Shown: positions 3,282 to 49,812 of the stretch, one piece after another
How the letters are laid out: each line of letters starts with the position of its first letter
Numbering within the stretch: the stretch's first letter is position 1
Origin: Flavobacteriia bacterium
GTDB taxonomy: Bacteria; Bacteroidota; Bacteroidia; Flavobacteriales_D; Crocinitomicaceae
Assembly (NCBI GenBank): GCA_016178305.1
Contig: JACOTM010000117.1
Coordinates: 1-49,812 of the forward strand
Direction: 5' to 3'
DNA: 49,812 nucleotides
Position numbers and translations under genes: made by a program
Notes under the pieces: model-generated
Database searches by the model: none
What the model was told of the DNA's origin: nothing
What the model saw: only the letters and a program-made list of their open reading frames with translations

Positions 3282-4194
3282 TTTTACTTTGTTTGAATAA
3301 GAAGTCTTTTTCTGCTTTTGTTAAAGATTCATATCCTGATTTTGAAATTTTATCTAAAATAATATCTGTTTGTTCTTGTTTTTGTTTTTTGTTCATGTTA
3401 TACTCTTCATCAGAAACAAAAGAAGTACTTCTTCCTCCTTTTTGAACTTTCATTTTGGGTTGATTTTGACCGAAAAGCTTTTTAAAAAATGCCCCGATCG
3501 ATTCGATAAATCTTTGAAACATAGTTAATATATTATTTTTATGATGAATTTTTTTAATAGATAATATTCCAATTAATGCTCCGCCAATATGGGCGAAATG
3601 TGCCGTTCCATCCGTTTTTCCCAAGCTGAACAAATCAACGAATAAAAAGATTAATGCTAAAATAATTATTTTAACAGGAAAAATTCCAAAAAAGTTAACT
3701 TCTAAATTTGGCCTGTAAAATGCTAAGGCAGCAAAAATTCCTAATACAGCTCCAGAAGCACCAACAATAAAAGTAGAATTAATTTGAGGGAAAATTATTT
3801 GTGCTAAAATTTCTAAAATACTCCCTGAAATTCCACAGAGTAAATAAGTATAGACTAATTTTTTTGAATTAAATATTTGTTCAAACATTTTTCCTGCAAC
3901 ATAAAGCATCAGCATATTTGATAATAAGTGAAAGAAGCTAAAATGTGTAAATGTGTTTGTTACAATTGTAATTGGAAAATAATATAGATACGATAAATCG
4001 GTTTTAAGAACAAAGAAATTATTAATTTCTCCCATCAAATTTAACAACGTTAATCCACCAAATAATCTAACAATAACTTCTAGAAAACTTAGAAATAAAT
4101 AAACAATTAGATTCGCAAGAATCAAGCGAACAGTTGCACCACCAAACTTTATGTGATGTCTCAATAAATCAACAAATGTTTCTTGTCTATTCAT
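3274..4194 (-). CDS. Rhomboid family intramembrane serine protease (with cytosolic tail)
   Basis: About 306 residues with six or seven hydrophobic segments. The catalytic serine lies in the GASG motif (Ser about 147 from the ATG) and the histidine in HFAHIGG (about 202), with the upstream HFSFFHLLSNM helix also present. After the membrane core a charged tail of about 90 residues ends in a short helical motif ('SKSGYESLTKAEKDFLF'), a domain often appended to Bacteroidota rhomboids. I chose the ATG at 4194 because it overlaps the preceding stop as TAATG; the alternative TTG at 4200 is unlikely. Rhomboids cleave transmembrane helices of other membrane proteins; the targets are unknown. Confidence 0.88.
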   Translation of the reverse strand: MNRQETFVDLLRHHIKFGGATVRLILANLIVYLFLSFLEVIVRLFGGLTLLNLMGEINNFFVLKTDLSYLYYFPITIVTNTFTHFSFFHLLSNMLMLYVAGKMFEQIFNSKKLVYTYLLCGISGSILEILAQIIFPQINSTFIVGASGAVLGIFAALAFYRPNLEVNFFGIFPVKIIILALIFLFVDLFSLGKTDGTAHFAHIGGALIGILSIKKIHHKNNILTMFQRFIESIGAFFKKLFGQNQPKMKVQKGGRSTSFVSDEEYNMNKKQKQEQTDIILDKISKSGYESLTKAEKDFLFKQSKNG

Positions 4195-44818: not shown

Positions 44819-44902
44819 TCTAACTAATGTTTTGAGGCTAGCGAGCAGTGGCACTCTGGAATTAGTGCATCTCAGCCCGTTGTCGCATAGCACCTGTTAG
44901 GA
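44819..44902 (-). repeat. attC-like palindromic site
   Basis: Minus strand: CTAACAGGTGCTATGCGACA ... loop with TGAGATGCACTA ... GAGCGATCGGAG-type arm reading GCTAGCCTCAAAACATTAGT. The ends are TAAC (44899-44896) and GTTA-like (44822-44825 on the plus strand). The arms share GCTA-GCGA-CA--GGC. It lies 9 bp after the TAA stop of the gene at 44911. Confidence 0.5.
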
Positions 44903-45713: not shown

Positions 45714-45792
45714 CCCTAACGTTTTCCAGCTAGGCGATCGGGCGGTAACAAACACAGTACGTTTCCGTCTGGTACCCTAGGTGGTGTTAGTT
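45714..45792 (-). repeat. attC-like palindromic site
   Basis: Plus strand reads CCCTAACGTTTTCCAGCTAG ... GGTACCCTAGGTGGTGTTAG: TAAC at 45717-45720 and GTTA at 45786-45789, with CTAGG in both arms. It shares CTAACGTTTT..AGCTAGGCGA..GGGC with the site at 47557. It sits 36 bp beyond the stop of the pseudogene at 45828. Confidence 0.5.
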
Positions 45793-46424: not shown

Positions 46425-47019
46425 ATTACACTGAGTTTAGTTTGTTAATGACAGCTGTTATATACTGACCTTTCTCACGCTGGTTTGCTGTGGTTTTCAG
46501 GTTGTGTATTTCTAGTTTGTCTTCACGGCTTCGCCTTCTACACTCACAGATTTAAGTATAGGAGGACAAATATTCTGAAAACGTAAATTTAAAATTATTA
46601 TTGATTCAATTTTCACTTTTTCAAAACTTTTCCCGAAGCAATTCACGTATTTTTCAGCGATTACTTAGACAACAAAAATGTCTAAAAACTTACCAAAATT
46701 TCGGCTACAGATTCTCTTTTTAGAAGTCGTCAAGTTTCGGTCGTCCGGGAATGAACTTCAAGATTCTTCATGTCCGAATTTTGGTTTTCAACGCGTAAAC
46801 TTCTTGTCAACAGTTTCTTTGACTTAAACAACCATTTTTGTTGTCGTCGCGAATAGTTGTGAAGTGAAAATTTGTCCGTATTTCTTCGATTTGTCCATAT
46901 CTTCCGTAATTTTTTTAGAAGCGAAACTTTCCAGTTTTCAGATGAATTGTCTTCGAAGCAGAATTCTTGTTAAGGCTTGCATATAACGATGTTATGTGTA
47001 GTAAGTACTACACAGCTTA
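46425..47019. other. Non-coding stretch inside the cassette-like region
   Basis: 595 bp with no convincing gene on either strand. Near each end there is an attC-like terminus: AGCTGTTATATA at 46454-46465 (compare AGCTGTTATGTG at the 47557 site) and TATAACGATGTTATGTG at 46982-46998. The latter reads CACATAAC-ATC-GTTATA on the minus strand, a collapsed site. In between are short hairpins (TTAGACA..TGTCTAA; AACAAC..GTTGTC). Base composition is more C+G than neighbouring spacers. It may be a gene-less or decayed cassette. Confidence 0.4.
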
Positions 47020-47556: not shown

Positions 47557-47638
47557 CACATAACGTTTTGGTGCTAGGCGACAGCGGGCTAACAGGTACA
47601 GTAATTTTCGCCCGTTGTCGCCTAGCAGCTGTTATGTG
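47557..47638 (-). repeat. attC-like palindromic site (best example)
   Basis: Perfect outer repeats CACATAAC (47557-47564) and GTTATGTG (47631-47638). The inner 18-bp arms TGCTAGGCGACAGCGGGC (47572-47589) and GCCCGTTGTCGCCTAGCA (47610-47627) pair with one mismatch, around a 20-base loop. The layout (TAAC - stem - loop - stem - GTTA, about 80 bp) is that of integron attC sites, although the canonical GTTRRRY is only partly met. Confidence 0.55.
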
Positions 47639-48308
47639 ACGGTTGTGTGTCCTGCGTTACCTCAGGATGCTAAGATACTTAAATCTTAGAAAAGGTAACA
47701 TAACTATAACAGAGATGATAGCGATTTTCTTCTGTTTTCAAAATTTGTAGAGGTCGAGCGAACAGACTGGCTACGGAATTGAATTTACAGAATTTAATCA
47801 TAGGTCTATCGGACAAGCTGTTCAGGCGTATTGTTCAAACTGCCTTGTGGTGCTGAGTTTAAGAGATTTGGTACTGAGCGACAAGGTTAAAGCATTAGAA
47901 TCGTTTGTAGGATTACTAATTGTATGGTATGAGTATAGGAGTTGAACGTAAGTGAAGCCTTATTGACGTGTCGAAAATAACATTTACTGTGTCAAAATCG
48001 AAGGGGAGGGCGATCCTGAGAGACAAAGTGTAGAGGATACCTGATTACTGTCTACACGACACACGGCATTAAGAGGACAAGAACTATACTCGGGCTCTGT
48101 TATGGAACAGGAGAACCAAGGCTGAAATGATAAGCAAAAATGACAATAGTCCAAGAAGGAAAAGTCAGAAAGTAGCGAAGTTCAGCCTTGGGGCGGATGA
48201 AGTCGTAGTAGCGAAAACATCCAAAAGAGCTCCTTTGAAAATTGGAGCGAGTGAAGGACTTCACTTAACAAGTTTATTTAACATATTACAACTTAATTTA
48301 CGTTAAGG

Positions 48309-49571
48309 ATGATTTTTGTAGAGAAACACAAGTCGCAACCTATCAGTAAGTTGCAAATCAATGAGGCTTTTCGAAAAGTAAGAGCCAACAAGGGAAGCGC
48401 AGGAGTTGATGGAATCACCATCGAACAAGTGAATAGCGATATTAGAAAATATCTGTACCCTTTGTGGAACAGAATGTTTAGTGGAAGCTATTTTCCAAGT
48501 CCTGTACGTCAAGTCCTTATTCATAAAGAGAAAGGCAAGACACGTCCCTTAGGAATCCCAACAATCGTAGATAGAGTAGGGCAACAAGTCATCTCTACGG
48601 AGTTGGAACGTATTGTAGATAAACACTTTAATCCAAACAGTTTTGGGTATCGACCGAACAAATCGGCGCAAGATGCCATCGAACAATGTCGTATCAACTG
48701 TTTAAAACACAGCTGGGTAATCGACTTAGATATAAAAGGGTTCTTCGACAACATAGATCATGATTTATTGTAAAAGCAGTAAGCCACTACACACAAGAGA
48801 AACACATTTTGTTGTATGTAAAGCGATGGCTCAATGCACCTGTTCAACTGCGAGACGGAACACTTAAACACCCAGAAGGAAAAGGCACACCACAAGGCGG
48901 AGTAATCAGTCCTGTGTTAGCTAATATCTTCATGGACATTGTTTTTGATAAATGGATAACCAAAAGAAATCCAGAGGTACAATTTGAAAGATATGCGGAC
49001 GACATAGTTGTTCATTGTAAAAATTTCAAGGACTCACTTCGATTACTAGAAGCAATTAAACAACGCTTAAAAGACTGTAAACTGGAACTTAACCAGGAGA
49101 AATCTAAGATTGTTTACTGCCGAAGAAATCAGAAGTATCATCCACCTTTTAAGGTTCATTATCAAAAGTTCGACTTCTTAGGCTACACATTTAAACCGAG
49201 AATAATAAAAGAGCGAGGAAAAAATCAAATTAGGATTTACTCCAGCAATCAGTACAAAAAGTATCAGCAGAATAGCGCAAGAACTTTGTAAAATGGACTT
49301 CCACCGTTGGGTGCATCATCCGTTGAGCAAAATTGCAGAAATACTGAAACTCAAAATACGAGGTTGGCTCAATTATTACGGCAAGTTCCGTCCTTCAGAG
49401 CTACGCAAGCTGTTCAACATCTTACACATTCGACTCACCAAATGGGTTCGCAACAAATACCGTAGGTTTAGAAAGAAACATTGGTATGTCGCCTACAAAC
49501 ACCTCAAAGGAATAGCCAAAAGCTATCCGAATTTGTTTGAACATTGGCAGTACGAAGGTTATAGACCGTAA
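48309..49571 (+). pseudogene. Group II intron reverse transcriptase/maturase, two frameshifts
   Basis: Three successive frames restore one RT-maturase. Frame 1 from the ATG at 48309 has 'NKGSAGVDGITIEQV', 'GKTRPLGIPTIVDRVGQQV', 'NSFGYRPNKSAQDAI' and 'DLDIKGFFDNIDHDLL', then a stop at about 48773. Frame 2 (about 48775-49230) has 'GTPQGGVISPVLANIFMDI', 'FERYADDIVVHC' (catalytic YADD) and 'FDFLGYTFKP'. Frame 3 has 'FTPAISTKSISRIAQEL' and the X/maturase end 'KLKIRGWLNYYGKF'. There is no HNH endonuclease domain. The frameshifts near 48770 and 49225-49237 should make it inactive unless another copy acts in trans. Confidence 0.88.
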
Positions 49572-49586
49572 AGACTTGGTTAAGAA

Positions 49587-49620
49587 GAGCCGTATGAATC
49601 GAGAGGTTCACGTACGGTTC
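49587..49620 (+). ncRNA. Group II intron domain V
   Basis: A 34-nt hairpin containing the catalytic AGC triad (49588-49590), with the arm CGTACGGTTC pairing to GAGCCGTATG, 16 bp after the maturase stop. This is the most conserved part of group II introns and fixes the element's type and strand. Confidence 0.88.
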
Positions 49621-49662
49621 TGTGAGAGGTTTAGGGGTGAAAATCTCCTTTACCTACTCGAC

Positions 49663-49812
49663 TTTTTTCGTTCGTTACGTATTAATTTTGTCGTCCGAAA
49701 GTCTGTTTTCTTATAGTTTTCTCTTCGGTAATTTGTTACGAAGCATAATCTTCGCCATTTTTTCCTTCTTAAACACAAAAAGAATTCGGTAGAATAGGGT
49801 GGGAGTGTAGAA
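49663..49812. other. DNA after the intron, no gene seen
   Basis: 150 bp to the window end. No ORF of note. It has the same style as the non-coding stretch at 46.5-46.9 kb (short TCG/CCG-rich words in T-rich sequence, for example GTCGTCCG). It may be the rest of a cassette interrupted by the intron. Confidence 0.3.

Follow-up and report, generated by a model that had tools for sequence, protein, structure and literature searches.

A decayed, non-IIC group II intron adjoins an attC-type hairpin in a Bacteroidota integron-type array

Introduction

Targeting of hairpins, attC sites among them, is best known for group II introns of class IIC and their neighbours. The IIC-attC introns (e.g. S.ma.I2), which have no endonuclease domain, are found at attC hairpins and run antisense to the cassettes. 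PMC7923331 describes group IIB introns associated with halophile integrons; UHB.I2 (CL1, with the AGC triad shown) stands in cassette orientation immediately after attC, and the truncated class E introns H.ha.F1/F2 have an attC-like structure upstream. Adjacency to terminators is described for the C, g6, U1 and U2 types in PMC8919778, where other types tend to lie far from terminators. A literature search that reached few of the subscription journals found no paper joining group II intron, attC, integron and Bacteroidetes.

Here we describe a stretch of 49,812 nucleotides from a Crocinitomicaceae genome, hereafter the window, which holds an old, broken, endonuclease-free non-IIC group II intron just 3' of an attC hairpin in an integron-type array of Bacteroidota. 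The locus is like the IIC-attC introns in its place at an attC hairpin, in the missing endonuclease domain and in being antisense to the cassettes. It is like UHB.I2 and H.ha.F1/F2 as a non-IIC intron at attC or CALIN sites, but those are single or truncated cases, whereas here tens of loci are found, with a fixed register and an EBS1 matching the attC core. Neither these arrays nor this intron clade is described in the titles and abstract starts among the matches listed for IIC-attC, orientation and Bacteroidota/Flavobacteria integrons.

Results and discussion

The hairpin upstream of the intron is of the attC type

The palindrome that precedes the intron, which a first-pass annotation of the window had called attC-like, has its arms CACATAAC at 47557-47564 and GTTATGTG at 47631-47638 (Table 1). 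Sites of this kind recur on small contigs of the window genome, between ORFs that point mostly in one direction. Copies were gathered by a loosened pattern search, and in 20 aligned sites a long inner stem is bounded by near-invariant AACG-TTTTG on one side and by TGTTA on the other. A structure of 22 pairs, written down from folds of the sites, pairs in 89.2% of cells over the 20 copies, and 11 of the 22 pairs are changed on both sides, a count as high in 1 of 500 shuffles. The covariation score of 0.282 (0.123 for shuffles) was reached by none of 500 shuffles, and sliding the partner column by 1 to 3 positions lowers pairing to 32-49%. RNAalifold, run unaided, finds no more than 10 pairs, of which 8 have changed on both sides.

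A model built from 20 sites, the window hairpin being one of them, gives 36 matches in the window genome (model R2). These correspond to 31 places, five matches being the reverse reading of the same palindrome; as 150 of 427 candidates were scored, the genome holds at least 31 places, 20 of which went into the model. R2 also matches 31 of 60 Crocinitomicaceae genomes at E <= 1e-4, the window genome (G000) among them.

Conserved R boxes, compensatory changes and repetition between one-direction ORFs are thus all present. We class the window hairpin as an attC-type site because the 20 copies covary, because at least 31 places of the genome carry the structure and because an IntI-like recombinase lies on the contig in five of seven relatives (see below). 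The attC-like call was right. The same annotation took the position of the intron as independent support for folding in single-stranded DNA; adjacency is not proof by itself, and the covariation is better evidence for that structure. Like attC sites of integrons and CALINs, the sites have an R box, an unpaired spacer, a long inner stem and mostly one-direction ORFs between them. They differ in belonging to Bacteroidota and in the near-invariant AACG-TTTTG, and the neighbouring recombinase of the relatives is without the region of the IntI-specific additional domain. At 46980-46998 of the window, between two cassettes, CATATAACGATGTTATGTG resembles an attC cut down to its two outer R boxes.

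Table 1. Features of the window and recombinases on contigs of relatives.
Feature	Position	Strand	Evidence or remark
Third attC-type site, same array	44823..44902	+	R2 62.6 bits
Second attC-type site, same array	45715..45792	+	R2 59.2 bits
Cassette ORF adjoining attC, 162 aa	47020..47508	-	Pfam: no match at E 0.001
Hairpin classed as attC-type, bottom strand	47557..47638	+	R box CACATAAC/GTTATGTG, unpaired GTTT spacer, long inner stem; CM R2 89.7 bits, E 2.3e-20
ACGGTT, six bases separating stem from intron, IBS1 position	47639..47644	+	Without pairing to predicted EBS1
Group II intron, classed as non-IIC, degenerate	47645..49662	+	RF01999 and RF00029 matches; 5' end common to G006 remnant
Domain I segment, Rfam RF01999 group-II-D1D4-2	47796..47913	+	63.0 bits
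Predicted EBS1 loop GAGGGCGA (EBS1 GGGCGA, 48008-48013)	48006..48013	+	Fold and homology with relatives; alternative 10-nt loop possible
RT fragment 1 (RVT_1), 154 aa	48309..48773	+	ORF and domain match
RT fragment 2 (RVT_1), 160 aa	48809..49291	+	ORF and domain match
RT fragment 3 (GIIM maturase domain), 92 aa	49293..49571	+	ORF and domain match
Domains V-VI, AGC-type domain V, ends CTACTCGAC	49585..49662	+	RF00029 63.5 bits
3' exon flank, starts TTTTTT	49663..49812	+	Reaches contig end
IntI-like recombinases of relatives, N-terminal extension, without additional-domain region	L150 2828-3940; L151 1090-2130; L152 799-1923; L144 986-2407; L145 contig start

Boundaries and class of the window intron

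The intron begins with GTGTG at 47645 and is 2018 nt long; its end is set at 49662 because the Rfam match to RF00029 (domains V-VI) ends there. The 5' end is backed by a remnant in a genome of the same genus, in which similarity begins exactly at GTGTG. The intron lies on the plus strand, opposite to the minus-strand cassette ORF. The palindrome arms, the intron start and the opposed strands are all where the first-pass annotation had placed them; it had put the intron 7 bp beyond the hairpin, and here the adjacency stands while the intervening bases number six. The insertion point is 12 nt past the GT/T point of the attC core (the slash marks an insertion point throughout). The 130 nt preceding the intron fold at -48.2 kcal/mol, with z = -6.4 relative to 60 dinucleotide shuffles.

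The window and its relatives share a domain I matching RF01999 and a domain V with AGAGCCG, which is of the AGC type (the AGC versus CGC distinction is drawn in PMC7923331). As IIC controls we used four plasmid introns, chosen because their RTs resemble that of GsI-IIC; among them is L154, a Shewanella xiamenensis plasmid intron beside an annotated integron integrase. All four have matches to RF02001 and RF01998 and a domain V that opens with GAACCGCC. In a FastTree phylogeny of 89 RTs, whose references are class C and one CL only, the five IIC references group together (support 1.0), apart from a clade of 83 others that includes the window (support 0.892). The window RT is a long branch, and its place within the 83-RT clade is without support. 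The behaviour of clade 1, described below, is therefore evidence by class and not by close kin.

The window intron has a GUGYG start, a RAY end, the RF01999 and AGC features, and an RT with X domain, the RT being broken. It is a decayed copy, because the RT lies in fragments across three frames, a feature absent from the first-pass annotation. On these features we assign it to a non-IIC, endonuclease-free class of the Rfam D1D4-2 type. This bears out the earlier remark that the protein is not textbook class C, and the class check proposed with it, made here with the Rfam models, likewise places the intron outside IIC. Its domain I matches the RF01999 model at 63 bits; it differs from other RF01999 introns in the broken RT and in having 151 nt before the model start, compared with 27-57 in L053, L101, L104 and L111. 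Another RF01999-type intron, L036, has a long 5' part of domain I too.

Other copies of the window lineage

A search for other copies had been suggested, and it yielded no second copy in the 3.6 Mb window genome and, among 399 genomes of the order, a single further locus of the lineage, which does lie at an attC. This remnant, in the same-genus genome G006, comprises 175 nt of the window lineage at 77%, starting from the corresponding GTGTG. Some 10 nt further on comes the right half of an attC, on the same strand, and then a cassette. The counterpart of this cassette in G007 (78% over 235 nt) has an intact attC. On the left side of the remnant there is an R-box-like CTAATAACGTTT; no matching left arm was found there, and R2 gave no match on the remains, which are half an attC. 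Thus, both loci of the window lineage known from the 399 genomes are at attC sites on the bottom strand. An intron-less allele, which was to define the exact boundaries, was not found when the 150-nt 3' flank alone was used to search 59 genomes; only one match in another genome (G018) starts at the boundary, and no attC precedes it.

A clade of related introns inserts at attC-type hairpins in a fixed register

A scan of named genomes returned 163 relatives, of which the best 80 loci were kept. A usable 5' boundary was available for 70 of the 80 (left out: L059, L062, L078, L081, L083, L085, L091, L113, L123 and L128), and the addition of the window, five copies from G104 and three further loci brought the set to 79, with 78 used for folding and 77 for arm pairing. 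The 3' ends of L055, L056, L064, L070, L073 and L074 were read by eye. For L104 (G037) the intron start was set at position 3479, an earlier candidate start lying inside the end of the upstream intron.

Folds of the 130 nt upstream reach z below -3 in 26 of 78 sites, a count that takes in sites behind another intron's domains V-VI, compared with 4/59, 3/72, 2/75 and 0/57 for downstream and distant control segments. Arm pairing reaches z >= 3 relative to mononucleotide shuffles in 28 of 77 sites, compared with 7 of 373 control points, which were taken at fixed distances from the sites whether coding or not. The raw pairing score gives a weaker contrast (>= 15 in 21/77 compared with 13/373; >= 13 in 31/77 compared with 56/373). 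Of the 49 sites with z < 3, eight belong to clade 1.

The signal is concentrated in clade 1, where 24 of 32 loci reach z >= 3 (7/373 controls) and the arm ends at -7/-8 in 21 of 32 (16/373 controls). Among the 45 sites tested outside this clade, a z of 3 is reached only by L036, L101, L111 and the window. Each of the 32 clade-1 sites ends in CGT/, and T is the next base in 28 of the 29 with a readable 3' end; the loci are partly non-independent, as some Sediminibacterium sites may be common to two species. R2 spans the insertion point in five of the 31 clade-1 loci given (L060, L068, L072, L082 and L093), always on the minus strand, and has no match across it in the other 26. The nearest upstream ORF is on the strand of the intron in 30 of the 31 clade-1 loci listed. 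Taken together, the CGT/ sites, the minus-strand R2 matches and the ORF strands show that the entry point of clade 1 is the R' core, on the strand that codes for the cassettes and at the attC end opposite to that of the window copy. Compared with clade 1, the window intron thus occupies the other strand, 12 nt past the clade-1 position. In the IIC control L154 the core is split as CTTGT/TAG beside minus-strand ORFs (ends read by eye). A clade-1 start 2 nt earlier (CAAAAC/GTGTGTG) was considered and rejected, as EBS1 pairing and the joined core CGT/TAG favour the later GTGTG.

Targeting of such hairpins by a non-IIC class is therefore well supported, and the list of 5' flanks of other introns that had been called for does show attC-like hairpins repeating at related introns, chiefly in clade 1. 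The claim that the hairpin served as target for a non-IIC intron gains from the fixed register of clade 1 as far as the class is concerned; for the window copy, EBS1, strand and offset speak against it. We regard targeting of the hairpin by the window copy itself as probable.

Among the loci kept, Sediminibacterium sp. C3 carries six closely related copies (L061, L063, L065, L069, L071 and L093) and S. salmoneum four (L066, L067, L068 and L079), three of the latter within ~28 kb. The copies of both lie at several different attC-type sites. A further subclade of this intron class (L092, L104-L107, L109, L112, L114, L115, L121, L124 and L131) is inserted at the apparent end of another intron. 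Its 5' flank reads ...CTACTCGAT/GTGTG or a near variant in 12 of 13 loci, and a pattern search found the IIC-type domain V start GAACCGCC at most 170 nt upstream in nine of 13. In this subclade EBS1 matches five or six of the six bases before the intron in all nine loci tested.

EBS1-IBS1 pairing

In the relatives the likely EBS1 is predicted in a stem-loop after TCAAAA. In clade 1 this loop reads GTT-ACGTTT-G, and the EBS1 ACGTTT pairs with AAACGT. Predicted EBS1/IBS1 pairs at other loci are CTTTGC/GCAAAG, TAAGTT/AACTTA, GCTTGT/ACAAGC and ATCGAG/CTCGAT. Under an automatic loop rule, at least five of six bases pair in 60 of 79 loci and all six in 43 of 79; with flanks exchanged between loci the figures are 28.2% and 10.3%. 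Within clade 1 only L076 and L080 fall below five. A tally with loops picked by eye while the flank was in view gives 43 of 43 at five or more, which is biased and covers 43 of 78 loci.

The EBS1-IBS1 check that had been proposed for the window went against targeting: the predicted EBS1 GGGCGA matches the six-base flank at four of six positions, two of them G-T, and the alternative loop at three. Of 433 mismatched combinations, 282 reach four. This mismatch is the strongest result against simple targeting of the window copy. With its score of 4 the window is one of 19 of the 79 loci below five under the automatic rule, and the result is less damaging because 18 other loci fail too, some of which may have wrong loops. 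Within the attC, TCGCCC at 47608-47613 fits the predicted window EBS1 at six of six positions; the intron lies 31 nt further on.

A model for insertion at the attC stem

On balance we favour the explanation that non-IIC introns of this kind reverse-splice at the attC stem, the window copy included. The intron RNP would reverse-splice into single-stranded DNA at the six or seven bases next to the long attC stem on its 3' side, these bases would be recognised by EBS1-IBS1 pairing, and a primer at the replication fork would serve to copy the intron in. What is computed from the data is the attC-type fold, the class of the intron and the fixed-register insertion at such hairpins in one clade. Single-stranded DNA and fork priming are suggested by established knowledge of introns without endonuclease. 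We infer that the window copy took this route too, on the bottom strand, and that either its EBS1 or its flank has altered since.

Ectopic retrotransposition into the array is the alternative that survives best, although we think it unlikely: the intron would have inserted without recognising the hairpin, and the 6-bp distance would be a coincidence in an attC-dense region. The mismatch of the window EBS1 and its flank fits this account, as do the spacing of attC sites in the arrays of the window genome, ~1.1 kb, and the many relatives without a strong upstream hairpin. Against it, a random array insertion has a ~0.7% chance of falling at most 7 nt downstream of an attC on its own strand, a post hoc figure that rests on 24 sites in 27,066 bases of four contigs in the window genome. 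The only other locus found for the lineage (G006) is also at an attC, and hairpins are enriched in the intron class (28/77 compared with 7/373).

A further alternative, to which we give still less credence, is that the target is a terminator-like hairpin with a T-run (ACGGTT/TTTTTT), as for class IIC, and not attC as such. The T-run does span the insertion point, C, g6, U1 and U2 introns are reported beside terminators (PMC8919778), and five or more T in a row occur at most 20 nt away at three of the 19 other attC-type sites of the window genome. A terminator scan, limited to loops of 3-8 nt and so blind to a hairpin with a loop this long, called no terminator. The clade-1 sites argue against this alternative, for they are without a T-run and have instead the CGT/T of the attC core.

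That the window holds an IIC-attC intron is very improbable and was rejected: strand, antisense orientation and attC end are as in IIC-attC introns (PMC7923331; control L154), yet the match to RF01999 and not to the RF02001 and RF01998 of the controls, the AGC-type domain V in place of GAACCGCC, an RT outside the IIC clade and an insertion 12 nt past GT/T, with no TTGT/T site in R'', all set it apart.

Integron context and recombinases

No protein of the window genome scores above the TIGR02249 cut-off for integron integrases, nor does any in 120 genomes of the family; an IntI with the additional domain beside the array, as a complete integron would have, was not found in the window genome. 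Five of seven relatives examined (G132, G002, G023, G058 and G007) carry a tyrosine recombinase on a contig with attC-type sites. In these five the recombinase aligns with the two ends of the integrase model, ~1-180 and 238-315, that of G007 being a C-terminal piece only, at the contig edge. The stretch absent from them is the expected place of the IntI-specific additional domain, a domain described in PMC9668308. The distance from recombinase to the nearest attC-type site found is ~1 to 8 kb, and in all five the recombinase lies on the side that the ORFs point away from and in the same direction as the ORFs. In G022 the recombinase and the listed attC-type sites are on different contigs, and G104 has many copies of a shorter recombinase type. 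With NCBIfam models, none of four of these recombinases passes the TIGR02249 cut-off, and two of the four just pass that of NF040815 ('site-specific tyrosine recombinase/integron integrase').

Their position suggests that these recombinases act on the attC-type sites, and the arrays that have them are possibly overlooked integrons of Bacteroidota, a phylum from which integrons as such have already been reported (PMC8618304). We lean, cautiously, towards a joint reading in which Bacteroidota harbour an endonuclease-free non-IIC class specialised on folded targets. Clade 1 would use CGT/T on the cassette-coding strand with a core-matched EBS1, other subclades would use other registers of such hairpins, and another would insert exactly at the 3' end of IIC introns. 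The attC hosts would be integrons run by a recombinase without the additional domain, and the window copy would represent this class on the bottom strand. If this is true, folded single-stranded DNA would be a niche that group II introns have entered on more than one occasion, since a second class would have its EBS1 matched to the core of attC. Such introns would also serve as natural probes of how attC sites fold in Bacteroidota, and would point to integron-type arrays unflagged by the curated integrase models used here.

Two contigs of G104 (C1 and C2) carry twelve similar-scoring copies of a ~300-aa IntI-like recombinase, which may be a mobile element; one copy of this recombinase in G104 lies within ~10 kb of an intron copy (L153). 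In G132, a region of ~108 kb (C1, 4211547-4319509) contains many attC-type sites of two sizes, ~77 and 131 bp, and those listed for this contig are all in one orientation.
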